In this document: positions 2,636-31,591 of the stretch, piece by piece | How the letters are laid out: each line of letters begins with the position of its first letter | How positions within the stretch are numbered: the stretch's first letter is position 1 | NCBI GenBank assembly: GCA_938010045.1 | Contig: CALLFZ010000010.1 | Span: 1 to 64,000, forward strand | Direction: 5' to 3' | DNA from: an uncultured bacterium | GTDB taxonomy: Bacteria > Verrucomicrobiota > Kiritimatiellia > PWTM01 | DNA: 64,000 nt | Translations under genes and position numbers: made by a program | The notes under the pieces: generated by a model | Databases searched by the model: none | Seen by the model: the letters and a program-made list of their open reading frames with translations, nothing else | What the model was told of the DNA's origin: nothing

Positions 2636-5600
2636 ACACTGTGCGCCCGCCTCCGACCGCCCGCAACGGCGGCCCCCCATGCATGGCCTCCGCGCCGCGG
2701 CCGTTCTGCCCGCCGCTCTCACGGCCGCCTCTGCCGCCGCCCCGTTGCTCACCAATGAATTCATCTTCGAAACCGCGCCGTTCAAGTCCTGCCACGCCTC
2801 GACCATCGCTGAGCTGCCCGATGGCACACTCGTTGCCGCATGGTTCGGCGGAACCGCCGAAGGCCACCCTGATGTCGGTATCTGGTTCTCGCGTCGCGAA
2901 ACCACCGGTTGGACGCCCCCCCTCGAAATTGCCGACGGCCGTCATCCCGATGGCTCCCGCCATCCATGCTGGAACCCCGTCCTGCACGTGGCCCGCGATG
3001 GGTCCCTCGTTCTTCTCTACAAAGTCGGTCCCAACGTGCCTCGATGGACGGCCGTCCGCCGCGTCTCTCGGAACGGTGGCCGCACGTGGTCCGAACCCGT
3101 CCGCCTCCCCGACGGCGTCATCGGACCCGTGAAGAATACGCCCGTCCGCCTGCCCAACGGCGACCTCCTCGCCGGCTCGAGCACCGAACACGACGGCTGG
3201 CGCGTTCACTTCGAACTTAGCCACGATGACGGTCTCACCTGGCTCCCCTCGCCGCCGGTGAACGACGGCCGCGAGATCTCCGCCATCCAACCGGCCATTC
3301 TATTCGCGGGCGGCGACGGTCTCGTCGCCCTCGGCCGCACCCGGCAGCGACGCCTCGTTCGCATCGAGTCGTCGGATCTCGGCCGAACTTGGGGGCCGAT
3401 GCGACTCACCGACCTGCCCAACCCAAACTCCGGTATTGACGCGGTCACGCTCGCCGATGGCCGTCACCTCCTCGTCTACAACCCTGTCGAGCGCGGTCGC
3501 TCCCCGCTCATCGTCGCGATCTCTTCGAACACCACCGACTGGACTCCGCTCGCAACCCTCGACGACGAACCGCGCGCCGAGTTCAGCTATCCCGCCGTGA
3601 TTCAAACTCGCGACGGCCGCGTCCACATCACCTACACGTGGAAGCGGCTCCGCATTCGCCACGCGGTGCTCGACCTCGGCCCCTCTTCAACATCCGCCGC
3701 TTCCGCCGGCCTCATCATCGCCGGCCACGGCTGGATCCCCGCCGTCCTTTCCAACGGCGCGCGCGCGTTCTCGAACCGCGGCTACGTCTGGACCAACGTC
3801 CCCCCCGCCTTCGCCGGCTGGTCCTACACCCAAACCTCCGGCGGCGTGCCCGCCGAGATCCGCGTCACCTCCCGCACCTCCGGCTCGCTCTTCGCCGCCG
3901 CTCCGCCCGCGGCCCGCCTCGCGGGCTGGACCCCCCTGCAGAACGCCACCTTCGCCTACACCGACCGCAGCCTGACCCCGATGTCCATCTGGTCGCGCCC
4001 GCTCGCGGCTGACGAAACCGTCCCCCTCCCACAACGTGGGTGGACCGGCACCCTTTTGCTCTGGCCGCCCAGCATGGCCATCGAACTCCGCCAACTCCCG
4101 CCGGCTCCCTCCCGCCCCCTCGAACGGCTCCGCTACAACCATCCTGGCCTCGTCGTGGATCTCGGCGTCGGACTCTGGGCCTGGCCGCTGCCGGTGGACT
4201 TTGACGGCGATGGCGACCTCGATCTCGTCGTCAGTTGCCCGGATACGCCGTACAACGGCCTGTACGTTTTCGAGAACCCCGGACCCGCCGCGTCGCCGGC
4301 GCAGGCGGGCGCGTCGGCCGCGATGCCCGTCTTCAAACCCGGGCGGCGAATCAGCCGGGGTTTGCAGAACGTCCAAATCAGCTACGTCGCTGGCGCGCCC
4401 CGCGTGCTGTCGCCGGGCATCGAATATCCCGGTTTCCGTTCAACCGGACTCGACGACGGTGTGCAACTGCCGCTGCCGGCCAATGTCCATCCGAATCGAG
4501 TCCGCGCGAACATGTGGCGCTACGTGGACTACGACGGCGACGGAGCCCTGGATGTGATCGTCGGCGTCGGCGACTGGACCGACTACGGATGGGACAACGC
4601 CTACGACGCCTCCGGCCGTTGGACCAACGGTCCGCTGCGCGGGTTCGTCTATCTCATCCGGAACCGCGGCACGACCGGCGCGCCCGACTACGAGGCGCCG
4701 GTGAAGGTGATGGCCAACGGCCAACCCGTCGAAGTCTTCGGCTGGCCGTCGCCGAACTTCGGCGACTTCGACGGCGATGGCGACCTCGATCTGCTCTGCG
4801 GGGAGTTCCTCGACGGGTTTACGTACTTCGAGAATATCGGCTCGCGGACGCGGCCCGCGTACGCCGCCGGCCGGCGCGTGGAGACCCCGGACGGCACGCC
4901 GCTGACGATGGATCTCCAGATGATCACGCCGACCGCGATCGACTGGGATGGCGACGGCGATCTCGATCTGGTCGTTGGCGAGGAGGACGGGCGGGTCGCG
5001 TTCGTCGAAAACGTCACTGGCGAGGGAACCGGCCGGCCCTCGGCGAGCCTGTGCCGGGCGCCGTGCTTTTTGCCGCCACGGTATTTCCGCCAGGAAGCGG
5101 CCGACGTGAAGTTCGGAGCCTTGGCAACCCCGTACGGCTTCGACTGGGACGGCGACGGCGACATTGACCTGATCTGCGGTAACAGCGCCGGCTACATCGC
5201 AGTCATCGAAAATCTCAGCGGACCCGGCGTTGAATTCCCTCGCTGGGCCGCCCCGCGCCTCCTCGAAGCCGACGGCCGTACGATCCGCATCCAGGCCGGC
5301 CCCAACGGCAGTATTCAGGGCCCCGCCGAAGCGAAATGGGGATATACCACCCTCAGCATCGCCGACTGGGACCACGACGGCCTCCCCGACCTCGTTGTGA
5401 ACTCGATCTGGGGCCGCGTGCATTGGTACCGCAACACCGGCACCCGCACCGCACCCCAACTCGCCGCCCCCCGCCCCATCGAAGTCGAATGGGACGGCCC
5501 GCCCCCCGTTCTCGATTGGGGGTGGTTGCGTCCGGAAGGCCAAGAACTGCTCACACAGTGGCGCACCACGCCCGTCGCGGTGGACTGGAATCGCGACGGC

Positions 5601-6032
5601 CTCACCGATCTGGTCATGCTCGACACTGAAGGTTACCTCGCCTTCTTCGAGCGCGCCCGGCGCGATGGGCAGCTCGTGCTGCGGCATCCCCGCCGGGCCT
5701 TCTGCGACGAGGCGGGCGTGCCGTTACGGCTGAACGCCGGCCGCGCCGGACTCAGCGGCCGCCGCAAGTTGTGCGTGACGGACTGGGACGGCGACGGCCG
5801 GCTCGACCTCCTCCTCAACGACGCCAACGCCCGCTGGCTCCGGCAGATCGGCGACGCCGACGGCCGCTGGTACTTCCGCGACATGGGGCTGCTCAGCCAC
5901 CAAACCATCGAAGGCCATGACGTCAGCCCTACGGTCGTGGACTTCAACGCCGACGGTATCCCCGACTTCCTCGGCGGCGCCGAGGATGGCCACGTCTACT
6001 ACCTACGCAATCCCCGGAGCGATCCTCGATGA
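2625..6032 (+). CDS. Secreted sialidase-like beta-propeller fused to nine FG-GAP/VCBS repeats
   Basis: About 1135 residues from ATG 2625, which has GAGGTG just upstream and overlaps the symporter stop; an internal ATG at 2679 leads directly into a signal peptide (LRAAAVLPAALTAASAAAP). Residues ~45-360 match the 'predicted neuraminidase' BNR family: CHASTIAELPDGTLVAAWFG near the start, several Asp-box-like motifs (SRNGGRTW, SHDDGLTW, SDLGRTW) and the conserved EFSYPAVIQTRDG segment. A middle region (~370-510) looks like a beta-sandwich. From ~525 to the end there are nine Ca-binding FG-GAP/VCBS units of the form DxDGDGDLDL, at nt ~4198, 4530, 4768, 4942, 5146, 5368, 5583, 5783 and 5939. It is probably exported and acts on, or binds, a glycan. 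True sialidase activity is unproven; many BNR proteins cleave other sugars. The next gene begins within its stop codon. Confidence 0.8.
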   Translation: MPLEHCAPASDRPQRRPPMHGLRAAAVLPAALTAASAAAPLLTNEFIFETAPFKSCHASTIAELPDGTLVAAWFGGTAEGHPDVGIWFSRRETTGWTPPLEIADGRHPDGSRHPCWNPVLHVARDGSLVLLYKVGPNVPRWTAVRRVSRNGGRTWSEPVRLPDGVIGPVKNTPVRLPNGDLLAGSSTEHDGWRVHFELSHDDGLTWLPSPPVNDGREISAIQPAILFAGGDGLVALGRTRQRRLVRIESSDLGRTWGPMRLTDLPNPNSGIDAVTLADGRHLLVYNPVERGRSPLIVAISSNTTDWTPLATLDDEPRAEFSYPAVIQTRDGRVHITYTWKRLRIRHAVLDLGPSSTSAASAGLIIAGHGWIPAVLSNGARAFSNRGYVWTNVPPAFAGWSYTQTSGGVPAEIRVTSRTSGSLFAAAPPAARLAGWTPLQNATFAYTDRSLTPMSIWSRPLAADETVPLPQRGWTGTLLLWPPSMAIELRQLPPAPSRPLERLRYNHPGLVVDLGVGLWAWPLPVDFDGDGDLDLVVSCPDTPYNGLYVFENPGPAASPAQAGASAAMPVFKPGRRISRGLQNVQISYVAGAPRVLSPGIEYPGFRSTGLDDGVQLPLPANVHPNRVRANMWRYVDYDGDGALDVIVGVGDWTDYGWDNAYDASGRWTNGPLRGFVYLIRNRGTTGAPDYEAPVKVMANGQPVEVFGWPSPNFGDFDGDGDLDLLCGEFLDGFTYFENIGSRTRPAYAAGRRVETPDGTPLTMDLQMITPTAIDWDGDGDLDLVVGEEDGRVAFVENVTGEGTGRPSASLCRAPCFLPPRYFRQEAADVKFGALATPYGFDWDGDGDIDLICGNSAGYIAVIENLSGPGVEFPRWAAPRLLEADGRTIRIQAGPNGSIQGPAEAKWGYTTLSIADWDHDGLPDLVVNSIWGRVHWYRNTGTRTAPQLAAPRPIEVEWDGPPPVLDWGWLRPEGQELLTQWRTTPVAVDWNRDGLTDLVMLDTEGYLAFFERARRDGQLVLRHPRRAFCDEAGVPLRLNAGRAGLSGRRKLCVTDWDGDGRLDLLLNDANARWLRQIGDADGRWYFRDMGLLSHQTIEGHDVSPTVVDFNADGIPDFLGGAEDGHVYYLRNPRSDPR

Positions 6033-7441
6033 AGTCCCGTTTCACCCCACATGCCTCGCCGCCCAAGTTGAAGATAGGCCGCTTTGTCCAATGCTTGGAC
6101 GCGACCGCCCGTCCTGGCTCCAAACCTTGGACACACCAATCCGCGCGCGCCGCCGCCGCAGCGTTGCTCGCCGGCGCGCTGACCGTCTGTGCCGCCGGCG
6201 GCCCGGTCCGACCGCTCGCGCAGCCCCACGTCGTTGTTGTCGAATCCCCCGATCCCGAACGCATTTACTGTTACACCCCCGGCATCGCCCGCCTCCGCAC
6301 CGGTCGCCTCGTCGCCACGATGGATTTCGGTGGGCCCGGCATGACCAGCGATCAACCGCGCGGCCGCATCTTCACCTCCGACGACGGCGGCCTCACCTGG
6401 ACGTTGCGCGGCTCGTTTCCCTTCCTTCACGCCCGCCCGTTCGAGGCCGGCGGCGCCCTCTACATCCTCGGCCACTCCGGCGACCTCATGATCGTCCGCT
6501 CGGACGACGGCGGTCTCACATGGTCTGCCCCCGCCCGCCTCACCGACGGCCAATCCTGGCACGGCACCGCCGGCAACGTGCTCGAACACCGCGGCCACAT
6601 CTACCTCGTGATGGAGCGGCGCGTCTCGCAGACGATCCGCGTCTGGCCCGTGGGCGAGCTGGCGCCGGTCCTCCTGCGTGGCCGCGTCGACGGCGATCTG
6701 ACCGACCGCGCCCAGTGGCGGTTCGCCTCCGAACTCTCGTTCGCGGCCACCATCCCGAACCTCGCGCTCGATCCTGCGCTCGACCACTTCGGCGTGCCAT
6801 TCTTCGCGGCGCCCTACCCCGTCGGCAGCCGGCCCAGCGCCCGCCGTCCCTGCGCGCCGATCGGCTGGCTCGAGGGCAACGTCGTGCGCTTCGCCGATCC
6901 GGACCACCTGTTGCACGACCCCTCCGATCGCACCTTCTACATCTGGCTGCGCGCCCACACCGGTGGCGCCGGCTATGCCGCCGTCGCGAAAGTCGTCGAA
7001 CACGGGAACGGCTCCATGATCACACAGCTCGCCACGGTCCCCTCCGGCAAGCGGCTGCTCTTTGTCCCGTGCCCCGGCGGCCATCTCCGCTTCCACGTGC
7101 TCTATGACGAACCGTCGAAACTGTTCTGGCTGCTGAGCTCTCAAGCCACCGACTCGATGAGCCGTCCCGACCGCCTGCCACCGGAGCGATATGGCTTGCC
7201 CAACAACGAGCGCCACCGCCTGCAGCTCCATTTCTCCCGCAACATGTTCGACTGGTGCTTCGCGGGCCTCGTCGCGACCGGCGCGACGCCCCGCGAGGCG
7301 CGCAGCTACGCCGCCATGGCCGTGGACGGCGACGACCTCGTGATTCTCTCGCGCAGCGGCGACGCCCGCGCGAAGTCGGCCCACGACACGAACCTCATCA
7401 CATTCCACCGCGTCCGCCGCTTTCGGGAGCTGGTCTACTGA
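6029..7441 (+). CDS. Exported BNR/sialidase-like protein (start uncertain)
   Basis: A 470-residue reading frame whose ATG overlaps the previous stop (ATGA). Two canonical Asp-boxes, TSDDGGLTWTL and RSDDGGLTWSA, and alternating beta-strand patterns mark a sialidase-fold propeller. The hydrophobic export signal (AAAAALLAGALTVCAA) starts only at residue ~41. The preceding ~40 residues are encoded by DNA holding the paired TCCAA-N3-TTGGA palindrome (6086-6131), which also occurs outside genes elsewhere. The true start may therefore be a downstream codon such as TTG at 6164, making the first 130 bases an untranslated leader. The last base overlaps the aldolase ATG (TGATG). It probably belongs to the same glycan-degrading pathway as the upstream gene; the substrate cannot be read from sequence. 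Confidence 0.75.
   Translation: MKSRFTPHASPPKLKIGRFVQCLDATARPGSKPWTHQSARAAAAALLAGALTVCAAGGPVRPLAQPHVVVVESPDPERIYCYTPGIARLRTGRLVATMDFGGPGMTSDQPRGRIFTSDDGGLTWTLRGSFPFLHARPFEAGGALYILGHSGDLMIVRSDDGGLTWSAPARLTDGQSWHGTAGNVLEHRGHIYLVMERRVSQTIRVWPVGELAPVLLRGRVDGDLTDRAQWRFASELSFAATIPNLALDPALDHFGVPFFAAPYPVGSRPSARRPCAPIGWLEGNVVRFADPDHLLHDPSDRTFYIWLRAHTGGAGYAAVAKVVEHGNGSMITQLATVPSGKRLLFVPCPGGHLRFHVLYDEPSKLFWLLSSQATDSMSRPDRLPPERYGLPNNERHRLQLHFSRNMFDWCFAGLVATGATPREARSYAAMAVDGDDLVILSRSGDARAKSAHDTNLITFHRVRRFRELVY
6086..6132. repeat. Paired palindromic repeat, copy A (32-bp centre spacing)
   Basis: GTCCAATGCTTGGAC (6086-6100) is a perfect 6-bp-arm dyad. It is followed by TCCAAACCTTGGA (6119-6131), a 5-bp-arm dyad, with dyad centres 32 bp apart. 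The same two-palindrome arrangement with the same spacing recurs at 60218-60263. Both pairs read GACGC after the first dyad and end with CTTGGACAC. Confidence 0.75.
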
Positions 7442-19921: not shown

Positions 19922-22226
<2,305 letters not shown>

Positions 22227-22306
22227 GTCTGCCCCATCGTCTCCGCTTCCAGCCACGCGACGCCGCCACCGCCAGCGGGTGACGCGGTTCCGCGGTGCGA
22301 GGCGAC

Positions 22307-23146
22307 ATGGTACGACGAGGCGGTTTTCTGATCTGGATGGTGCTGCTGGCGACGCTGCTGGCGATCGCCAACCTCCCGCTGCCCGCCGCCCGCGCCGTGA
22401 AGGCCGGGGTGCGGGAGTTCCTCGCTCCGCTGCACGCCCTCATCGCCCGCACCTCGATGCACGTGCGCGAGGCCGCCAGCGCGATCCGCGGGATCGGCGG
22501 GTTGGCCGCGGAAAACCGCGCGCTGCAAGAGGAAATGCTCCGGCTGCGCCTCGACATGCAATCGCTGCAGGCCGCCGCGGCCGAGAACGCCGAATTGCGC
22601 GAGCTCGCCGGATTCCGCCAGCGCGCCGGCCAGCGAACCGTCGCGGCCGAGGTGATCGCCCGCGAAAGCAGCGGCTGGTGGCAGTCGTTGCGCCTCGATC
22701 GCGGCCGGCTCGATGGACTCCGCGCCGACCTGCCCGTCGTCACGCCCGACGGTATCGTCGGCCGAATCACAGACGTCACTGATCACACGGCGGACGTGCT
22801 GCTGATCAGCGACCCGAGCTGCCGCGTCTCGGTGCGCATCCCGCGCACAGGATCGCACGGCGTCCTGCGCGGTGTGGGCATGCGGTGGGACGGCCAGATC
22901 GTCTGCCGCGTCGATTTCCTGCATCCCCGACATGCCGTGCGACCGGGCGACGAGGTCGTGACGTCGGGACTCGGCGGTGTCTTCCCGCCGAACCTGCCCG
23001 TCGGCACCGTTCTCTCCGCCCAGATGGACGCCGCGGGGCTGTACCGGCGGGCGGATGTGCTGCCCCGCGCCGATCTCGGCCGGTTGCGGCGCGCGTTCGT
23101 GCTCACCGATGAACCGCTGCCACCGCGCAGGAGCTCGAGGCGATGA
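22307..23146 (+). CDS. mreC: Rod-shape-determining protein MreC
   Basis: 279 residues from ATG 22307 (an in-frame GTG at 22295 is an alternative). It has an N-terminal membrane helix (FLIWMVLLATLLAIANLPLP), then a coiled coil (AENRALQEEMLRLRLDM) and the double beta-barrel periplasmic domain. That domain has typical MreC phrases: VIARESSGWWQSLRLDRG, TPDGIVGRITDVTDHTADVL, LISDPSCRVSVRI and GDEVVTSGLGGVFPPNLPVG. It bridges MreB to the periplasmic synthases. It overlaps mreD by four bases. Confidence 0.93.
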   Translation: MVRRGGFLIWMVLLATLLAIANLPLPAARAVKAGVREFLAPLHALIARTSMHVREAASAIRGIGGLAAENRALQEEMLRLRLDMQSLQAAAAENAELRELAGFRQRAGQRTVAAEVIARESSGWWQSLRLDRGRLDGLRADLPVVTPDGIVGRITDVTDHTADVLLISDPSCRVSVRIPRTGSHGVLRGVGMRWDGQIVCRVDFLHPRHAVRPGDEVVTSGLGGVFPPNLPVGTVLSAQMDAAGLYRRADVLPRADLGRLRRAFVLTDEPLPPRRSSRR

Positions 23147-23646
23147 ACGCGATCTGCGCCCTGCTGCTGATGTTCGCCGGCGGCATGCTCCAGGCGGTGC
23201 TGCCCGCGCCGGCGGTCGCGGGTCAGACGCCGATCCCCATCCTCGCGGCGCTGGTCGTCCACCACGCGCTGACGCGTTCCCGGGCCTTCGCGCTGTGGGT
23301 CGCGGTCGCGGCGGGGGTGGTGTGCGACTCGCTCGGCCGCGTCCCGCTGGGCGTCTCCTCCGCGGCCTTCGCGGTCGTCGCGCTGCTGGTGGGCCGCTAC
23401 CGCGAAGAGGTCTTCGAATCGCGCGTCGCCACCCACGCGGCCCTCGGCGCCATCGCGATCCCCGCCGCCACGCTGCTAACTGCGCTCCTGTTGGCCGCGA
23501 TGCGAGAACTGTCGGTCGGCCTGCCCCGGGTGCTGCTGAAGGTCGCGGGCGCCGCAGTGCTCGGCGCGCTGGTCACTCCAATGGTCGCGGACGCGGCCGC
23601 GCGGTTCGAACGGCTGATCGGCGCAACGCCGGAGGTTCGCCGATGA
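23143..23646 (+). CDS. mreD: Rod-shape-determining protein MreD-like
   Basis: A 167-residue, highly hydrophobic protein with about five membrane segments, located between mreC and mrdA with ATGA overlaps at both ends. Sequence similarity to MreD is weak, as usual for this family, but the motif VAAGVVCDSLGRVPLGVSSAAF corresponds to the conserved GLLxDxxxGxPLG region. It would be the membrane partner of MreC in the elongasome. The assignment depends mostly on position, length and topology. Confidence 0.85.
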   Translation: MNAICALLLMFAGGMLQAVLPAPAVAGQTPIPILAALVVHHALTRSRAFALWVAVAAGVVCDSLGRVPLGVSSAAFAVVALLVGRYREEVFESRVATHAALGAIAIPAATLLTALLLAAMRELSVGLPRVLLKVAGAAVLGALVTPMVADAAARFERLIGATPEVRR

Positions 23647-25475
23647 ACCGTCCGCGCCGCCCTCTGGATTGGGAACGGGCGCGATTGCGCGCGTTGCTCG
23701 CGATCGCGCTGCTCGCGTTCAGCGTGCTGGAGATCGCGTTGTGGCGCCTTCAGGTGAGCCGCGGCTCCGACTACCGGCGCGACCTCGCCCGCCAAAGCGT
23801 GCGGCGCGTGCGCGTGCCCGGCCCCCGGGGCTGCATCTACGACCGCCACGGCCGCATCCTCGCCGACAACCGGCCCGCCTATGTTCTGGCGCTCTATCTC
23901 GAGGAGATCCGCCCGCGGCGCCGGGGCGAACCCCTGATTCCGCGAATCGTTGCGACGCTCGAGGACATTGCGGCGGTGATCGGTCTGCCGCCGCAGGTGA
24001 CCACCAACGACCTGCGCGCGCACATCCAGCGCCGCCTGCCGCTCCCCCTCGTCGCCTGGCGCGATCTTCCCGAGGCCGCCGTCGCACGGTGGGCCGAAAT
24101 GGGCAGTCGCATCGCCGGCGCCGACCTCGGCGCCGAACCGGTCCGCATCTATCCCGCAGGCCGCACTGCCTGCCACGTCCTCGGGTACGTTGGCCGCGCC
24201 GACCTGACCGCGATCGAGGAGGAACCCTATCACTACCACCTCTCCGAAATGGCCGGCGCCGCCGGGATTGAAAAGGTGTACGACAACGTACTGCGCGGCC
24301 GCGCGGGCGTGCGGCTCGTGCGGGTCGACGCCGCGGGCTACCGCTATCAAGACCTCGGCGGCACCGAGCCAGCCGGCGGCGCAGATGTACGGCTGACGCT
24401 GGACCTCGAGCTTCAGAAGGCCGCCGAAGCCGCGCTCGGAGATCGCGCCGGCGCCATCGTGGCGATCGATCCCGACGACGGCTCGATCCTCGCCCTTGCC
24501 AGCCGGCCCGACTACGACCCCGGCCGCTTTGTGCCGTCCATCTCGGCCACCGACTGGGCGCAGCTGCTGCACGACCCCACGCGCCCCCTATTCAACCGCG
24601 CCGTCGCCGGCGCCTATGCGCCCGGCAGCACCTTCAAACCGATCGTCGCGATCGCAGCGCTTCAGCAGGGGCGAGCATCCCCCTCCACCGTCCACTCCTG
24701 CCCCGGGTACCTCGCCATCGGTCAGGCGCGCTTCCGCTGCTGGGACACGCTCGGCCACGGCCCATTGGATCTCTCGCGCGCGATCCGCTACTCGTGCAAC
24801 GTGTACTTCTTCCACACCGGACTGGCGGCCGGCCCCGACGCGATCGCCGCCGTCGCGCGGGCTGCGGGCCTCGGACGACCCACCGGCGTGGACCTCGATC
24901 AGGAGGCCGCCGGATTGGTCCCCGACCCCGCCTGGAAGCGGCGAGCCTGGCGGGACGCGTGGCGCGACGGCGACACCTGCAATCTCTCGATCGGGCAGGG
25001 CCCCATCACCGCCACGCCCCTCCAGATGGCCGTCGTCGCCGCCGCGATCGCCAACGGCGGTCGCCGAGTCACCCCTCACCTGCTGCTCGCGACGCGGCCT
25101 GCCGGCGCGGACGACTTTCAGCCCGCCCGCTGGCCAGCCCCCGAACCGCTCGGCTGGCCCCGCGCCGCCCTCGATGTCGTCGCGCGCGGCATGCGCGACG
25201 TTGTGATGGCCGAGGACGGCACCGGACGCCGCATGCGCGTGGCCGGCTTTGAACTGGCCGGCAAGACCGGCACCGCCGAGTACGGCCCCAAACGCGAAGG
25301 CCGAAAGCGAGGCTGGATGATCGCGTTCGGCCCGCTGCCGCGGCCGCGCCTCGCGGTCGCGATGATCGCGGAAGATGCGGTCAGCGGCGGTACCACCGTC
25401 GCGCCGCGCCTTCAGCAGTTCTTTGCGGCCGCGCTCGGGGGCGGCGGACCGTCCACGGAGGAGGCGCGCCGATGA
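23643..25475 (+). CDS. mrdA: Penicillin-binding protein 2 (elongasome transpeptidase)
   Basis: 610 residues from ATG 23643, overlapping mreD (ATGA). A single N-terminal anchor (LLAIALLAFSVLEIALWRLQV) is followed by the class B PBP dimerisation domain (GPRGCIYDRHGRILADNRPA) and the transpeptidase domain. The active-site triad is intact: SxxK in GAYAPGSTFKP (S329/K332), SxN in RYSCNVYF and KTG in LAGKTGTAEYG. It crosslinks new peptidoglycan during elongation, working with RodA, which is encoded immediately downstream with another four-base overlap. It is the expected target of mecillinam-type beta-lactams. Confidence 0.96.
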   Translation: MNRPRRPLDWERARLRALLAIALLAFSVLEIALWRLQVSRGSDYRRDLARQSVRRVRVPGPRGCIYDRHGRILADNRPAYVLALYLEEIRPRRRGEPLIPRIVATLEDIAAVIGLPPQVTTNDLRAHIQRRLPLPLVAWRDLPEAAVARWAEMGSRIAGADLGAEPVRIYPAGRTACHVLGYVGRADLTAIEEEPYHYHLSEMAGAAGIEKVYDNVLRGRAGVRLVRVDAAGYRYQDLGGTEPAGGADVRLTLDLELQKAAEAALGDRAGAIVAIDPDDGSILALASRPDYDPGRFVPSISATDWAQLLHDPTRPLFNRAVAGAYAPGSTFKPIVAIAALQQGRASPSTVHSCPGYLAIGQARFRCWDTLGHGPLDLSRAIRYSCNVYFFHTGLAAGPDAIAAVARAAGLGRPTGVDLDQEAAGLVPDPAWKRRAWRDAWRDGDTCNLSIGQGPITATPLQMAVVAAAIANGGRRVTPHLLLATRPAGADDFQPARWPAPEPLGWPRAALDVVARGMRDVVMAEDGTGRRMRVAGFELAGKTGTAEYGPKREGRKRGWMIAFGPLPRPRLAVAMIAEDAVSGGTTVAPRLQQFFAAALGGGGPSTEEARR

Positions 25476-26590
25476 GAAGACCCGCCGTGCCGTCGGCTCT
25501 CCGGGCGTTACGCCGCTGCGACCGGCTGTTTGTCGTTGCAGCGCTCGGGCTGCTCGCGATGGGCGTGCTGTTCATTTACAGCGCCGGGCGGCAAAGTCCG
25601 ACGCTCGCGCTGCTCTGGCGCCGCCAGCTCGGGTGGGCGCTCGCCGCGATCGCAGCGTTCGTCGCCGTCGTCGCCACTGGTTACCGGCGGATCCTCGCCT
25701 CCGCGGCGGCCCTCTATGCGATCGCGGCCGCCGTGCTCGGCCTCACGCTCATCTTCGGCGTGAAGATCAACGGCGCGCGCTGCTGGCTCAACCTGTTCGG
25801 CGTGCAACTGCAACCGTCCGAGTTTGCGAAAGTCGCGACGATCCTGCTGGCCGCGCGCATGCTCGCGCGCCCCGACCTGCCGGCCGACCGCTGGTCCACA
25901 CTGCTGAAGGCCGCCGCGGTCGTCGGGCTGCCGTTCGGCTTGATTGTGCTTCAGCCGGATCTCGGCACCGCAATGGTGCTGTTGCCCGTCACCCTTGCGA
26001 TGCTCCTGGTCGCCGGCATGCGCGCCCGCCACCTGGCCGCCCTGACGGCCCTCGGGCTGTTGCTGTTGCCCCCCGCCTGGTTCGTCCTTGACGAATACCA
26101 GCGAGAACGCATCCGCGTCTTTCTCGACCCCTGGCGCGACCCCCTCGGCTCCGGCTGGAACAAAATTCAATCCGAACTGGCGATCGGCTCGGGCGGACTT
26201 TGGGGCAAAGGATGGCTCGCCGGTACCCAGAACACCCTCGGCTATCTCCCCCGCCCCGTGGCGCCGACGGATTTCATCTTCTCGGTCGTCGCGGAAGAAA
26301 CCGGCTTCGTCGGATCGTCGCTCTTGATCCTGCTGTTCGCGGTGCTCGTGGTCCGCGGTGTCGCGGCCGCCGTCGAAGCCCCCGACCGGGAGGGCATGCT
26401 GCTGGCGACCGGCCTCACGGCGCTGGTCTTCAGCCACGCGTTCGTGAACCTTGCGATGACAATCGGACTGCTGCCGATCACCGGCCTGCCGCTGCCCCTG
26501 GTCAGCTATGGCGGCTCGTTCCTGCTGGCGATCGGCATCTCGTTGGGATTGATCCAAAGCGTGCGGGCCCACCGCGCCGACCAGGAATGA
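25472..26590 (+). CDS. rodA: RodA (SEDS peptidoglycan glycosyltransferase)
   Basis: A 372-residue SEDS-family membrane protein with about ten helices. Family motifs are present: KINGARCWLNLFGVQLQPSE, then VLQPDLGTAMVLLPVT and GWNKIQSELAIGSGGLWGKG. The PTDFIFSVVAEETGFVGS and PLPLVSYGGSFLLAIG segments, which include the catalytic-loop aspartate and the C-terminal conserved serine/tyrosine region, are also intact. It polymerises glycan strands from lipid II. Its ATG overlaps the mrdA stop. Confidence 0.96.
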   Translation: MRRPAVPSALRALRRCDRLFVVAALGLLAMGVLFIYSAGRQSPTLALLWRRQLGWALAAIAAFVAVVATGYRRILASAAALYAIAAAVLGLTLIFGVKINGARCWLNLFGVQLQPSEFAKVATILLAARMLARPDLPADRWSTLLKAAAVVGLPFGLIVLQPDLGTAMVLLPVTLAMLLVAGMRARHLAALTALGLLLLPPAWFVLDEYQRERIRVFLDPWRDPLGSGWNKIQSELAIGSGGLWGKGWLAGTQNTLGYLPRPVAPTDFIFSVVAEETGFVGSSLLILLFAVLVVRGVAAAVEAPDREGMLLATGLTALVFSHAFVNLAMTIGLLPITGLPLPLVSYGGSFLLAIGISLGLIQSVRAHRADQE

Positions 26591-26603
26591 CACCGGAGGA
26601 ACT

Positions 26604-28202
26604 ATGATCCGAAAACTGATCCAAGCCATCTTCGGACGAAAGCCCGTGAAAAATCAGATCGTCATCAACGCCGAACGCCTCGAAACCCGCGTCGCGGTGC
26701 TGCAGGACGGCGAGCTCACCGACTTCTTCGTCGAGCGCCCCTCCGAGGACCGCATCGTCGGCAGCGTCTACAAAGGCCGCATCCAAAACCTCGAGGACAG
26801 CCTCCAGGCGGCGTTCATCGACATCGGGCTCAAGAAGAACGCCTTCATCCATTACTGGGACATGATCCCCGAGGACTCGATCCGGCTCGAGGCCGCCGAG
26901 GGTGGCGACAGCGACACCGCCCGCCAGCAGCGGCGCAACCGCCAGCTCGCCACCGAGATTCAACAGCGCTTCCCGATTGGCTCGGAGATCGTCGTGCAGG
27001 TCACAAAGGGACCGATCGGCACGAAGGGGCCGCGCGTCTCCGCGAACCTCAGCATCGCCGGACGCTACCTCGTGCTGCTGCCGGGCTCCTCGCTGAAGGG
27101 CGTTTCGCGACGGATCGAACAGCGCGAGGAACGCGACCGGCTCAAGAAGATCCTCGCGCGCCTGCCCGTCCCCGAGGGCGTGGGCGTTATTGTCCGCACC
27201 GCGGGGCTCGGCACCCGCCCGACCGCCTTCGCGCGCGATCTTCGCTCGCTGCTCGAAATCTGGCGGCAGATCGAGACCGGCATCCGCACGCAGCCGGCCC
27301 CCTGCCGGCTCTATCAAGAGCCCGACCTCATCGAACGGACGATCCGCGACGCGCTGACCGAAGACATTGACCGTATCGTGGTCGATTCCCGCGAGGAGTA
27401 TGAGCGCATCAAGTCCCTGATCGCGCGGATCTCGCGGCGCGCGCGCGGCACCCTCAAGCTGTACGAGGGCGAGGCCCCGATCTTCGACTACTACGACATC
27501 GAGCGCAAAATCGAGAATTCGCTGCGCCGCAAGGTCTGGCTGCCCAGCGGTGGTTACATCGTGATTGATGAGACCGAGGCGATGGTCGCGATCGACGTGA
27601 ACACCGGCCGGTTCAAGGGCGGCAAAAGCCAGGACGAATCCATCCTTCAGGTCAACCTCGAGGCGGCCGAGGAGATCGCGCGCCAGCTCCGCATGCGCAA
27701 CGTCGGCGGACTCGTCGTCATCGACTTCATCGACATGAAATCCCGCAAGGACCAGCAGCAGGTCTACCGCCGCATGCGCGAGTGCCTGCGCAACGACCGC
27801 GCCCGTACGAATGTGTTACCGATCTCACCGCTGGGCCTCATGGAAATGACGCGACAGCGCAGCGACGAAAGCATCCGCGACACGGCCTCGGTCAACTGCC
27901 CCTACTGCGGCGGGCGCGGCCGCGTGAAGTCCACGCTCACGATGAGCGTCGAGATTCAACGGCGGGCGGCCGGCGTCCTGCGGCGCCTTCGCCAGCAGGG
28001 TCGCACGGCCGAGCTGCGCATCCGGGTGAACCCCGCCGTGCTCGAACGGCTGCGCCGCGAAGACGAAGCCGCCTTGGTCGACCTCGAGGAGAAGTTGGGC
28101 GGGCGTCTCGGGTTCGTGGCCGACCCGTCGTTGCACGTCGAGGACTTCGTCATCCAGGATGCGGCCACCGGCGAGGAGATGTATACCACGCGCGAAAGCT
28201 GA
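26604..28202 (+). CDS. rng: Ribonuclease G/E family endoribonuclease
   Basis: 532 residues, with GGAGGAACT directly before the ATG and 13 bp after rodA. An N-terminal S1-like RNA-binding domain (GSVYKGRIQNLEDSLQAAFI, FIDIGLKKNAFIH) is followed by the 5'-sensor and DNase-I-like region. The catalytic metal-binding aspartates are in VAIDVNTGRF and VVIDFIDM. The zinc-link cysteines follow in NCPYCGGRGRVKS. There is no long RNase E scaffold tail, so it is RNase G-sized, though it may do the job of both. Co-location with rod-shape genes matches the classical mreBCD-rng arrangement of proteobacteria. Confidence 0.93.
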   Translation: MIRKLIQAIFGRKPVKNQIVINAERLETRVAVLQDGELTDFFVERPSEDRIVGSVYKGRIQNLEDSLQAAFIDIGLKKNAFIHYWDMIPEDSIRLEAAEGGDSDTARQQRRNRQLATEIQQRFPIGSEIVVQVTKGPIGTKGPRVSANLSIAGRYLVLLPGSSLKGVSRRIEQREERDRLKKILARLPVPEGVGVIVRTAGLGTRPTAFARDLRSLLEIWRQIETGIRTQPAPCRLYQEPDLIERTIRDALTEDIDRIVVDSREEYERIKSLIARISRRARGTLKLYEGEAPIFDYYDIERKIENSLRRKVWLPSGGYIVIDETEAMVAIDVNTGRFKGGKSQDESILQVNLEAAEEIARQLRMRNVGGLVVIDFIDMKSRKDQQQVYRRMRECLRNDRARTNVLPISPLGLMEMTRQRSDESIRDTASVNCPYCGGRGRVKSTLTMSVEIQRRAAGVLRRLRQQGRTAELRIRVNPAVLERLRREDEAALVDLEEKLGGRLGFVADPSLHVEDFVIQDAATGEEMYTTRES

Positions 28203-28243: not shown

Positions 28244-31200
28244 ATGGACAGTCTTTCCTTGGATCAGTGGCTCGACCTCTACCGCCACATGGTCGCGGCC
28301 CGCCGAATGGAAGTGCGGGCCGCCGATCTGGCGCGACGGGGCGAGATCTCGTTTCACCTGGGCGGGGATGGCCACGAGGGCACCGCGGTGCTCGCACCGC
28401 GGCTGGGCCCACAGGACTGGTTGCACCCGCATTACCGCGACATCGCGCTGCTGCTCGCACGCGGCCTGCCGATCGCCGAGTTCATGCACGCGCTCTTCGG
28501 CACTTCACTCGCCTCGAACGGCGGCCGGGATATGCCGCCCTTTCACTGCGACCCTGCGCTCCACGTGCTGCCCATGCCGACCTTCGTCGGCAATAATGCG
28601 CTGCCAGCCGTCGGCGTCGCGGCGCAGGTCGCGGATCAGCCCGACCGGCCCATCGTGTACTGCGGCATCGGCGACGGCGGCTCGCAGCAGGGTGAGGTGC
28701 TCGAGGCCATCGCCGAGGCCGTACGCCGCTGCCTGCCCGTGCTGTTCATGGTCGAAGACAACACCTACGCGCTCTCGACACCCACGCGCGGTGCCACCTG
28801 GTACGACCGACCCGACGGCGCCGCCGCCGAATTCTACGGCCTCCCCATCGTCCGCGCCGACGCGCGCGACCCGGTCGCCTTCGAGGCCGCGCTACGCCCA
28901 ATCGTCGCGGCGATGCGGGACGATCGCCGTCCGAGGCTGGTCGTCGCCCGTTGCGAGCGACTCGTCAGCCACTCGAACTCCGACGATCAAACCATCTACC
29001 GCTCGGCCCAGGAATTGGACGCGGTCCGTGCTGCAGGCGACCCGATTGCTCGTCTTCGCCAGTGGCTGCTCACCGCCGGCGTCGCGACGGAGCGCCTGAC
29101 CGCCATCGAGGAATCCGTGGACCGCGAGATCGAGACGGCCACGGCGGAGGCCCGCTCGGCGCCGCCGCCCGTCCATGCTCCGGCCCGCTGGCCGCGCCCC
29201 GAGAGCCCGCCGCTGGAGACCCGCCCCGAGGGTCCGCCGGAGCGCTCGATGCTCGAAGCGCTCCGCGACACGCTGGCCGAGCTGCTCGCCTCCCACCCTG
29301 ACGTCACCCTGTACGGACAGGACATCGAAGACCCGAAGGGCGACGTCTTCGGCATCACGCGCGGCCTCTCCACCCGTTTTCCCGGCCGCGTGCGAAACTC
29401 GCCGCTGGCCGAAAGCACAATCGTCGGCACCGCGGTGGGCCGCGCGCTGGCCGGCGGTCGGCCGATCGTGTTCCTCCAGTTCGCGGACTTCTTCCCGGCC
29501 GCCTACAACCAGCTCGTCGCGGAGCTCGCCGCGATCGAGTGGCGCACCGCCGGCCGCTACCGGGTGCCGGTGATCGTGCTGGCCGTCGCCGGTGGCTACC
29601 GCGCCGGCCTCGGGCCATATCACGCGCAGAGTCCCGAAGCGGCCCTGGCCGCCATGCCCGGCTTGGACGTCCTGATGCCATCCACGGCCGCCGATGCCGC
29701 CGGCCTGCTGCGCGCGGCGTTCGATGCGGCGCGGCCCACTGTGCTGCTGTATCCGAAGGCCCTGCTGAATGACCGCCAACGCGGCATGCCCGCCAGCCAC
29801 CAACCCTACGTGCCGATCGGCCGCGCCCGCCGCATCCGCCGCGGCGACGATCTCACCCTCGTCGGATGGGGCAACACCGTGCCCCTGTGCGAAGAGGCGG
29901 CCGCCGTTCTCGCCGGCTCGGGCGTCCACTGTGATGTGCTCGACCTGCGCTCCCTTGTGCCGTGGGACCGAGACGCCGTCCTGGACAGCGTCCGCCGGAC
30001 CGGTCGGCTCGTCGTCGTACACGAAGCTCCGCCCGTCTGCGGCCTCGGCGCCGACATCCTCGCGATCGTCGCCGAACAAATCGGCGCGCCGGTCACCATG
30101 GCTCGCATCACCGGTCCCGACTCTCTGCCCCCCTTCCACGAGGGACTCCATCGCGCGGTCCTCCCATCGGTGCGGCGGATCCTCGAAACGGCCGCTCCCA
30201 TGCTCGGCCTCGATCTGACCTGGGAGCGCATCGAAACCGATGCGCCCGGCCGGTTCACCGTCCGCGCCGCCGGCTCAAGCCCGTCCGACGAAAACATCCG
30301 CATCGTCCGGCTACATGTTCGCCCTGGCGACCGCGTCGAGCCCGGCCGCCGGCTGGCCTCAGTCGAGGCCGACAAAGCTCCTCACGAAATCGCCGCGCCG
30401 GTCGCGGGTGTGGTCGACGAGGTGCTCGCCGCCGAGGGCGACATTGTTCGTGCCGGGCGCCCCCTGATCCGGCTCCGCGAGGTCCCCGCCGCCGGCGGTT
30501 CCGCCAGCGCCACGGCCGCGGAGATCCCCCGACTCCATCTGCGCTCCGCAGCCGCTCCGGTTCGTCAGGCCGGCCGCTTGGCGTACGGCGAATCGCCAGT
30601 CATCCTCGCCGCGGTCTGCCACGCAAACGGGTCGCGCGAGATCACCAATGAGGACCTCGTCGCCCGCCTGCCCGGCTGGAGCTCGGCCGACATCGTCCAG
30701 CGCACCGGCATCGCCCGCCGCTACTGGATCGGCCCCGGCGAGAACGTGCTCACACTGGCTGTCGCCGCCTGCCGCAAACTCTTCGCGCAGCTTCGCATCA
30801 GCCTTGCTGATGTCGATGCGATCATCTGCAGCACCGGTACCCCACTCTCCACGACCCCGTCGCTCGCCTGCCGCATCCTCCGGGAATTGAGCGCGCCAGG
30901 TACCACCGCCGAAATCCAGGCCCACGATATCAATGCCGCCTGCACTGGCTACTTGTACGCACTCCAACAGGTCTGGGACCTTTTGCAGATCCGGCCCGAG
31001 GCCAAGGTGCTGCTCGTGACCTCAGAAACCTTATCGCCCATGCTCGATCCGTCCGACCCGAACACCCTGTTTCTCTTCGGCGATGCGGCCACAGCCTCGC
31101 TCGTATCGCGGTCGCCCTTCCCCGGCCAGATGAACCTGCGCATCCACCGGCCCGTTCTCTCCGCGATGGGCGAAGACGAGCACGTGCTGTACGTCCCCGC

Positions 31201-31591
31201 CATGAACAGCGGGGAACACATCCGCATGGACGGCAAGCGCGTCTTCCGCGTCGCGGTCCGCAAAATGATCGAAATGCTGCAACGCGCCTGCGCCGAACAG
31301 GGCATCCGCATCCACGATCTCTCGATGATCGTGCCTCACCAGGCCAACGAACGAATCATCGAAGCCATTCAAAAGGCCATCGGATTCCCCACCGAAAAAG
31401 TCTTCTTCTACATTCGTGACCACGGCAACACCTCCTCGAACACCATTCCTTTGGCGCTGGAAGCGCTCATCCCAGGACGGTCAACCGGCGAACGGATCGG
31501 TCTAACCGCCTTCGGCGGCGGGTTCACCTACGGCGCCGCGATCCTGGAACTGCTCGGCCCGTCACCACCTACGACGCTGCAACCAGGCTGA
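28244..31591 (+). CDS. Four-part fusion: E1-alpha, E1-beta, lipoyl domain and FabH-type ketoacyl synthase III
   Basis: 1115 residues from ATG 28244 (GGAG six bases upstream; in-frame ATGs at 28229 and 28238). Residues ~1-300 are a 2-oxoacid dehydrogenase E1-alpha: HYRDIALLLARG and the thiamine-diphosphate motif GIGDGGSQQGEVLEA. Residues ~335-655 are E1-beta, with the activating glutamate in NSPLAESTIVG (E390) and GLGPYHAQSPEA (H460). Residues ~680-748 are a lipoyl domain with the acceptor lysine in SVEADKAPHEIAAP (K711). Residues ~785-1108 are a ketoacyl-ACP synthase III with an intact Cys-His-Asn triad: NAACTGYLY (C900), VPHQANERII (H1032), DHGNTSSN (N1062). No E2 acyltransferase domain is visible. 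The architecture suggests a branched-chain or similar 2-oxoacid is decarboxylated, the acyl group loaded on the lipoyl arm and delivered to the fused condensing enzyme to prime a fatty-acid or polyketide chain. Family assignments are strong; the channeling is inference. It lies 41 bp after rng. Confidence 0.9.
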   Translation: MDSLSLDQWLDLYRHMVAARRMEVRAADLARRGEISFHLGGDGHEGTAVLAPRLGPQDWLHPHYRDIALLLARGLPIAEFMHALFGTSLASNGGRDMPPFHCDPALHVLPMPTFVGNNALPAVGVAAQVADQPDRPIVYCGIGDGGSQQGEVLEAIAEAVRRCLPVLFMVEDNTYALSTPTRGATWYDRPDGAAAEFYGLPIVRADARDPVAFEAALRPIVAAMRDDRRPRLVVARCERLVSHSNSDDQTIYRSAQELDAVRAAGDPIARLRQWLLTAGVATERLTAIEESVDREIETATAEARSAPPPVHAPARWPRPESPPLETRPEGPPERSMLEALRDTLAELLASHPDVTLYGQDIEDPKGDVFGITRGLSTRFPGRVRNSPLAESTIVGTAVGRALAGGRPIVFLQFADFFPAAYNQLVAELAAIEWRTAGRYRVPVIVLAVAGGYRAGLGPYHAQSPEAALAAMPGLDVLMPSTAADAAGLLRAAFDAARPTVLLYPKALLNDRQRGMPASHQPYVPIGRARRIRRGDDLTLVGWGNTVPLCEEAAAVLAGSGVHCDVLDLRSLVPWDRDAVLDSVRRTGRLVVVHEAPPVCGLGADILAIVAEQIGAPVTMARITGPDSLPPFHEGLHRAVLPSVRRILETAAPMLGLDLTWERIETDAPGRFTVRAAGSSPSDENIRIVRLHVRPGDRVEPGRRLASVEADKAPHEIAAPVAGVVDEVLAAEGDIVRAGRPLIRLREVPAAGGSASATAAEIPRLHLRSAAAPVRQAGRLAYGESPVILAAVCHANGSREITNEDLVARLPGWSSADIVQRTGIARRYWIGPGENVLTLAVAACRKLFAQLRISLADVDAIICSTGTPLSTTPSLACRILRELSAPGTTAEIQAHDINAACTGYLYALQQVWDLLQIRPEAKVLLVTSETLSPMLDPSDPNTLFLFGDAATASLVSRSPFPGQMNLRIHRPVLSAMGEDEHVLYVPAMNSGEHIRMDGKRVFRVAVRKMIEMLQRACAEQGIRIHDLSMIVPHQANERIIEAIQKAIGFPTEKVFFYIRDHGNTSSNTIPLALEALIPGRSTGERIGLTAFGGGFTYGAAILELLGPSPPTTLQPG

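Follow-up and report, generated by a model that had tools for sequence, protein, structure and literature searches.

How does an acyl group made from a 2-oxoacid reach a fatty-acid condensing enzyme when the enzymes that make and use it are parts of one polypeptide? The question is raised by a single gene in the 64,000-nucleotide stretch of DNA analyzed here (the window; contig CALLFZ010000010.1 of assembly GCA_938010045.1, from an uncultured bacterium of the Kiritimatiellia), which encodes both E1 subunits of a 2-oxoacid dehydrogenase, a lipoyl domain and a ketoacyl synthase III (KAS III). We think it probable that this protein works as a 2-oxoacid dehydrogenase in which the condensing enzyme has taken the place of the E2 acyltransferase. 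In the cycle that we propose, the E1 domains would decarboxylate a 2-oxoacid, apparently one derived from an amino acid, on thiamine diphosphate (ThDP) and the acyl group would be reductively moved to the lipoyl group on K711. The lipoyl domain would then swing to the KAS III and acylate C900 without coenzyme A (CoA) or E2, and the KAS III would join the acyl group with malonyl-acyl carrier protein (malonyl-ACP) to form a 3-oxoacyl-ACP for fatty-acid synthesis. The dihydrolipoyl group would be re-oxidized by a lipoamide dehydrogenase (E3) encoded elsewhere.

The fusion gene occupies positions 28,244 to 31,591 on the forward strand as a single open frame without internal stops, encoding 1,115 residues and a stop codon. 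Its start is uncertain by at most five residues, because two further ATGs lie 6 and 15 nucleotides upstream (28,238 and 28,229). Six Pfam matches, all above their gathering cut-offs, confirm the domain order first read from the sequence: E1_dh (PF00676; residues 14–309, E 3e-45), Transket_pyr (335–509, E 3e-28), Transketolase_C (526–646, E 3e-30), Biotin_lipoyl (685–744, E 2e-13), ACP_syn_III (895–958, E 1e-16) and ACP_syn_III_C (1016–1102, E 3e-25). On the forward strand, E1-alpha corresponds to 28,283–29,170 (Pfam and PDB alignment), E1-beta, made of Transket_pyr and Transketolase_C, to 29,246–30,181 (Pfam and alignment to 1um9_B and 3duf_B), the lipoyl domain to 30,296–30,475 (Pfam), and the KAS III to 30,605–31,552 (residues 788–1103), as delimited by Pfam, by NCBIfam PRK09352 and by alignments and fold matches to FabH structures in the PDB. 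The AlphaFold model (mean pLDDT 78, pTM 0.63) confirms the domain folds only; FabH folds were matched in the PDB.

The place of an E2 core is taken by a linker (30,476–30,604, forward strand) that is predicted with low confidence over most of its length (pLDDT 30–68) and is probably flexible. In all 85 distinct fusions collected, the linker between the lipoyl and KAS domains measures 49–75 residues (median 54). An E2 core has about 230 residues, and there is therefore no room for one. All six domains are common to the 16 fusions of one alignment, in which no match to 2-oxoacid_dh (PF00198), E3_binding or PP-binding was reported at E≤1e-5. The absence of an E2 core claimed by the original prediction thus stands on both counts, PF00198 being missing from the protein and the linker being too short.

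A scan of named public genomes returned 80 loci, nearly all of them full length, with full-length homologues 43–82% identical to the window protein. The carriers belong to the Kiritimatiellota, the Pirellulaceae and other Planctomycetes, the Spirochaetes, the Sumerlaeota, the Verrucomicrobia (including Cerasicoccus arenae) and the Rhizobiales (including Rhizobium rhizogenes), and there is one cyanobacterial (Xenococcus) metagenome-assembled genome. Within the phylum of the window, 38 of the 384 sampled genomes carry the fusion. Three families carry it in every member that is at least 90% complete, namely the window's own (5/5), f28 (14/14) and f16 (8/8), and several other families of the same class lack it. 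Closed genomes are among the carriers, and G316 and G116 consist of a single contig. Such a spread, single-contig genomes included, rules out an assembly chimera of neighboring frames, which had been named as a way for the original prediction to fail, and likewise a frameshift fusion. No full-length homologue was found on plasmids; matches to the KAS portion only were ordinary KAS III. Pairwise distances of the E1, lipoyl and KAS parts correlate with r of 0.72–0.75, a level reached in none of 300 permutations, as expected if the three parts evolve as one unit. The E1 and KAS portions, as judged from these distances, have thus diverged together across phyla. Within the open-licence literature, to which the search was limited, we found no published account of the fusion; it appears to have no described counterpart there and to be conserved across many bacterial phyla. 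In two further genomes, open frames matching E1-alpha, E1-beta and lipoyl stand before an ordinary E2 core gene (G006, contig C11, 29,495–32,701; G020, contig C84, 3,688–6,891), and the fusion may have arisen through such intermediates.

Could each part still do its chemistry? Residue invariance was counted over the 85 distinct fusions, and E390, H460, H243 and N173 of E1, K711 of the lipoyl domain and C900, H1032 and N1062 of the KAS domain are the same in all 85. The lysine and the triad had been singled out in the original prediction, correctly so. E1-alpha carries the ThDP motif (GDG at residues 143–145, then N173) and a loop histidine, H243 (28,970–28,972, forward strand), that the conserved loop motif leads us to equate with H271-alpha. 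E390 (29,411–29,413) and H460 (29,621–29,623), both on the forward strand, align to E59-beta and H128-beta of the Bacillus stearothermophilus E1 (1um9_B, 3duf_B). The roles of E59, H128 and H271 in that enzyme have been described, and the two histidines are those linked to reductive acylation of the lipoyl group (PMC2663715). K711, in the motif SVEADKA (30,374–30,376, forward strand), is the predicted lipoylation site, and the domain around it aligns with the lipoyl domains of the E. coli pyruvate dehydrogenase (PDH) E2. Biotin as the prosthetic group was considered and rejected: among curated entries the domain matches E2 lipoyl domains best, and its motif reads DKA, not MKM. Altogether, all active sites of the fusion look functional from their residues.

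The KAS domain bears directly on whether CoA takes part. The domain scores 258 bits against PRK09352, above the cut-off of 249, and 225 bits against TIGR00747 (fabH), below the cut-off of 292. Its catalytic residues align to those of E. coli FabH, with C900 (30,941–30,943) equivalent to C112, H1032 (31,337–31,339) to H244 and N1062 (31,427–31,429) to N274, all on the forward strand. We compared 76 fusion KAS domains with ordinary FabHs of the same or closely related genomes. All 76 retain the Cys-His-Asn triad and R249; the condensation partner would be malonyl-ACP. In a tree, the fusion KAS domains form their own group apart from the housekeeping FabHs, with full support.

In E. coli-type FabH, Trp32 and Arg151 sandwich the adenine of CoA, and Thr28 forms a hydrogen bond to it (PMC4606726). 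None of the 76 fusions has a tryptophan at position 32, against 29/29 housekeeping FabHs, and none has an arginine at position 151, against 29/29 housekeeping FabHs and 31/31 non-fused KAS III; the Thr28 position is also changed, mostly to tryptophan. The window protein has D816 at the W32 position (30,689–30,691, forward strand), P939 at the R151 position (31,058–31,060, forward strand) and W812 at the T28 position, by alignment. Loss of W32 alone is not unique to fusions, since two extra non-fused KAS III, in G160 and G246, also lack it and keep R151. A further change lies at position 87, where a phenylalanine gives acetyl preference and a threonine admits larger chains (PMC3734052). There, T871 of the window protein (30,854–30,856, forward strand) is matched by threonine, serine or alanine in 76/76 fusions, against phenylalanine in 29/29 housekeeping FabHs. 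Such a replacement would open the acyl pocket, residue 87 being indicative only. We infer that the fusion KAS has kept the chemistry, changed the acyl pocket and lost the handle for CoA, as expected if its donor is the neighboring lipoyl arm.

The intact triad also bears on whether the KAS performs a different reaction, for instance acyl transfer or non-decarboxylative condensation, on a lipoyl-bound acyl group or an acyl-ACP. Related KAS III enzymes that do such things are named in the literature (PMC4578411). The triad typical of decarboxylative FabH is present in every copy and the domain passes the FabH-type PRK09352 cut-off, and we regard this explanation as the most improbable of those considered.

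A conventional route, in which a separate E2 releases acyl-CoA, the KAS III uses it like FabH and the fusion merely co-localizes the enzymes, makes a different prediction about the rest of the genome. The genome of the window does have two operons with an E2 core (aceEF, on contig 3, and a second one, on contig 20, that encodes E1, E2 and E3), together with two E3 genes, neither linked to the fusion, LipA and two LipB/LplA-type proteins, so that the E2, E3 and lipoate enzymes for which a genome check had been proposed are all there. Branched fatty-acid synthesis of the Listeria type, moreover, runs through acyl-CoA and FabH (PMC5013041). The picture differs in other carriers. The fusion is the sole E1_dh protein in six of them (G080, G316, G121, G336, G383 and G056). 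G316, which is one contig, and G056 each have a single E2 core, encoded in an aceE-aceF operon for pyruvate, and no E2 was detected in G336, a fragmented genome. Some complete genomes have just an AceEF-type PDH, a single ordinary FabH and the fusion, the latter being their only E1 of the alpha/beta type. The possibility that a separate bkd or pdh E2 serves the fusion, raised at the outset as grounds for abandoning direct delivery, therefore has a divided answer: several carriers have no dedicated bkd E2, whereas the window's own genome has an E1-E2-E3 operon as well as AceEF, so that an E2 acting in trans may serve the fusion there. Together with a W32/R151 clamp lost from 76/76 fusion KAS domains and a protein that has neither E2 core nor peripheral subunit-binding domain (PSBD), the carriers with AceF only or no detected E2 make the conventional route unlikely. 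The claim that the lipoyl arm delivers its acyl group straight to the KAS without free acyl-CoA is supported by the conserved architecture, the invariant E1 histidines, the lost clamp and the carriers with AceF only or no detected E2, and from such sequence evidence we infer direct lipoyl-to-KAS transfer and independence from CoA.

Which acyl group would be loaded? Isobutyryl derives from 2-oxoisovalerate. The major fatty acids of the cultured Pontiella species and of Tichowtungia aerotolerans are C18:0, i-C12:0, i-C14:0, i-C16:0 and i-C18:0 (PMC7356697, PMC10880615; the Tichowtungia column is named from the paper's comparison text), and even iso chains start from isobutyryl primers (PMC5013041). 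All ten f28 and f16 carriers tested encode exactly two KAS III each, the fusion and a FabH with F87, W32 and R151 that, by these residues, would be fit for acetyl-CoA and C18:0. The best candidate for isobutyryl priming in these carriers is the fusion. In the PDB comparison, E1-alpha and E1-beta of the fusion score best against branched-chain E1 structures. In the Kiritimatiellota, the most likely 2-oxoacid would be 2-oxoisovalerate, supplying an isobutyryl primer for even-numbered iso fatty acids; a different 2-oxoacid may serve in other groups.

Several points weigh against this account of the fusion. The separate E1-E2-E3 operon in its own genome is one, and the lack of a PSBD to recruit E3 is another. 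A tryptophan or arginine at the T28 position might take over the contact to adenine, and some FabHs with Phe87 accept branched primers. Several Pontiella-type genomes encode extra 2-oxoacid:ferredoxin oxidoreductase-like proteins (POR_N, 613–635 residues) that could be an alternative source of acyl-CoA; the single POR-type protein of G056 is probably a pyruvate enzyme, because it is about 1180 residues long. The carriers G328, G326, G080 and G116 are only putatively the genomes of such cultured strains. The iso chains are, finally, not shared by all carriers: Pirellulaceae and Rhizobium are not known for iso fatty acids, and in the Cerasicoccaceae, to which the carrier Cerasicoccus arenae belongs, C14:0 and C18:1w9c predominate (PMC10288369). 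Isobutyryl can therefore not be the universal primer.

The same cycle might run on a 2-oxoacid other than 2-oxoisovalerate (pyruvate, 2-oxobutyrate or an aromatic one) and start a special lipid or polyketide, not bulk membrane fatty acid. The lack of dominant iso fatty acids in the Cerasicoccaceae fits such a product, as do gene neighborhoods that vary by lineage. No neighbor conserved across phyla that would name the product was found, only lineage-specific ones, such as a fatty-acid hydroxylase in the Rhizobiales and carrier-protein and AMP-ligase genes in a planctomycete. Against it, AceEF covers pyruvate in Pontiella- and Tichowtungia-type genomes, where the fusion is the only or nearly the only alpha/beta E1 and the groups make even iso chains, and the E1 domains resemble the branched-chain enzymes best. 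We consider this alternative possible, less likely than the main account but the strongest of the three.

In the Rhizobiales, a membrane fatty-acid hydroxylase family gene lies directly upstream of the fusion on the same strand (L112, 8,605–9,738; L113, 8,734–9,729; L114, 8,745–9,740; the L113 copy matches PF04116 and the other two are near-identical by eye), which suggests a modified lipid as product. The planctomycete locus L109 has AMP-binding ligase and carrier-protein genes upstream of its fusion copy (5,286–7,224). In the Pirellulaceae, the gene for a 208-residue protein that has two BMC (microcompartment shell) domains starts 0–22 nucleotides after the fusion gene (L063, 13,316–13,942; L071, 10,069–10,695; also L072, L079, L080, L087 and L098). 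In the Spirochaetes, a protein of about 900 residues, aconitase-like by eye, is encoded divergently beside it (L069, L082, L093, L095, L097, L099 and L100).

In the window, an RNase E/G gene (26,604–28,202, forward strand; Pfam and synteny) stands directly upstream of the fusion and closes a run of MreB, MreC, MreD, PBP2, RodA and RNase G genes (20,376–28,202) that is kept in the window's family (also in L035, L037, L038 and L044). Since the fusion ends this run, 10–75 nucleotides after RNase G throughout the family, it may be co-transcribed with the cell-shape genes there. Scans for repeats, promoters and terminators around the fusion gene returned nothing of note.

The closest functional relative of the fusion is Photorhabdus BkdABC, a branched-chain 2-oxoacid dehydrogenase operon for iso fatty acids, photopyrones and isopropylstilbene (PMC4578411, PMC4901931). 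There, likewise, a 2-oxoacid dehydrogenase feeds the formation of a 3-oxoacyl thioester (5-methyl-3-oxohexanoyl) and of iso fatty acids; by description (PMC4578411, PMC4901931), however, the system consists of separate proteins and its BkdB has an ACP domain that needs a phosphopantetheinyl transferase, whereas the fusion has neither ACP domain nor E2 core. A nonribosomal peptide synthetase (NRPS) on Streptomyces plasmids (L123, 11,884–26,143, NZ_CP109590.1; L175, NZ_CP061282.1) opens with a lipoyl domain, an E2-like core and a carrier domain and adjoins a fused E1-alpha/beta gene and a Streptomyces antibiotic regulatory protein (SARP) regulator. There too a lipoyl arm would pass an acyl group made from a 2-oxoacid to a biosynthetic enzyme, but the E2-like core is kept, the acceptor is a carrier domain and not a ketosynthase, and the genes are separate. 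Neither system replaces E2 by a ketosynthase. With canonical PDH and branched-chain 2-oxoacid dehydrogenase (BCKDH) complexes the fusion shares the E1-alpha/beta catalytic residues and the lipoyl domain, and it differs from them in lacking the E2 core and PSBD, a KAS III standing in the E2 position. With FabH it shares the fold, the triad and R249, and it differs in the missing adenine clamp, the replaced F87 and the junction to E1 and lipoyl.

In the textbook scheme, fatty-acid initiation takes acetyl-CoA or a branched acyl-CoA and FabH. That a widespread, hitherto undescribed route free of acyl-CoA and E2 starts fatty acids from a 2-oxoacid by passing the acyl group from ThDP to the lipoyl arm and on to the KAS cysteine within one polypeptide, and in the Kiritimatiellota makes isobutyryl-primed even iso fatty acids, is a proposal for which we see the balance as even. 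If it is true, one enzyme would lead from a 2-oxoacid to a 3-oxoacyl-ACP as a CoA-free entry into fatty-acid synthesis, and a lipoyl arm would be able to serve a condensing enzyme in place of E2. This would provide a compact tool for branched-lipid production and would explain the iso fatty acids of poorly studied anaerobes that lack a bkd complex.

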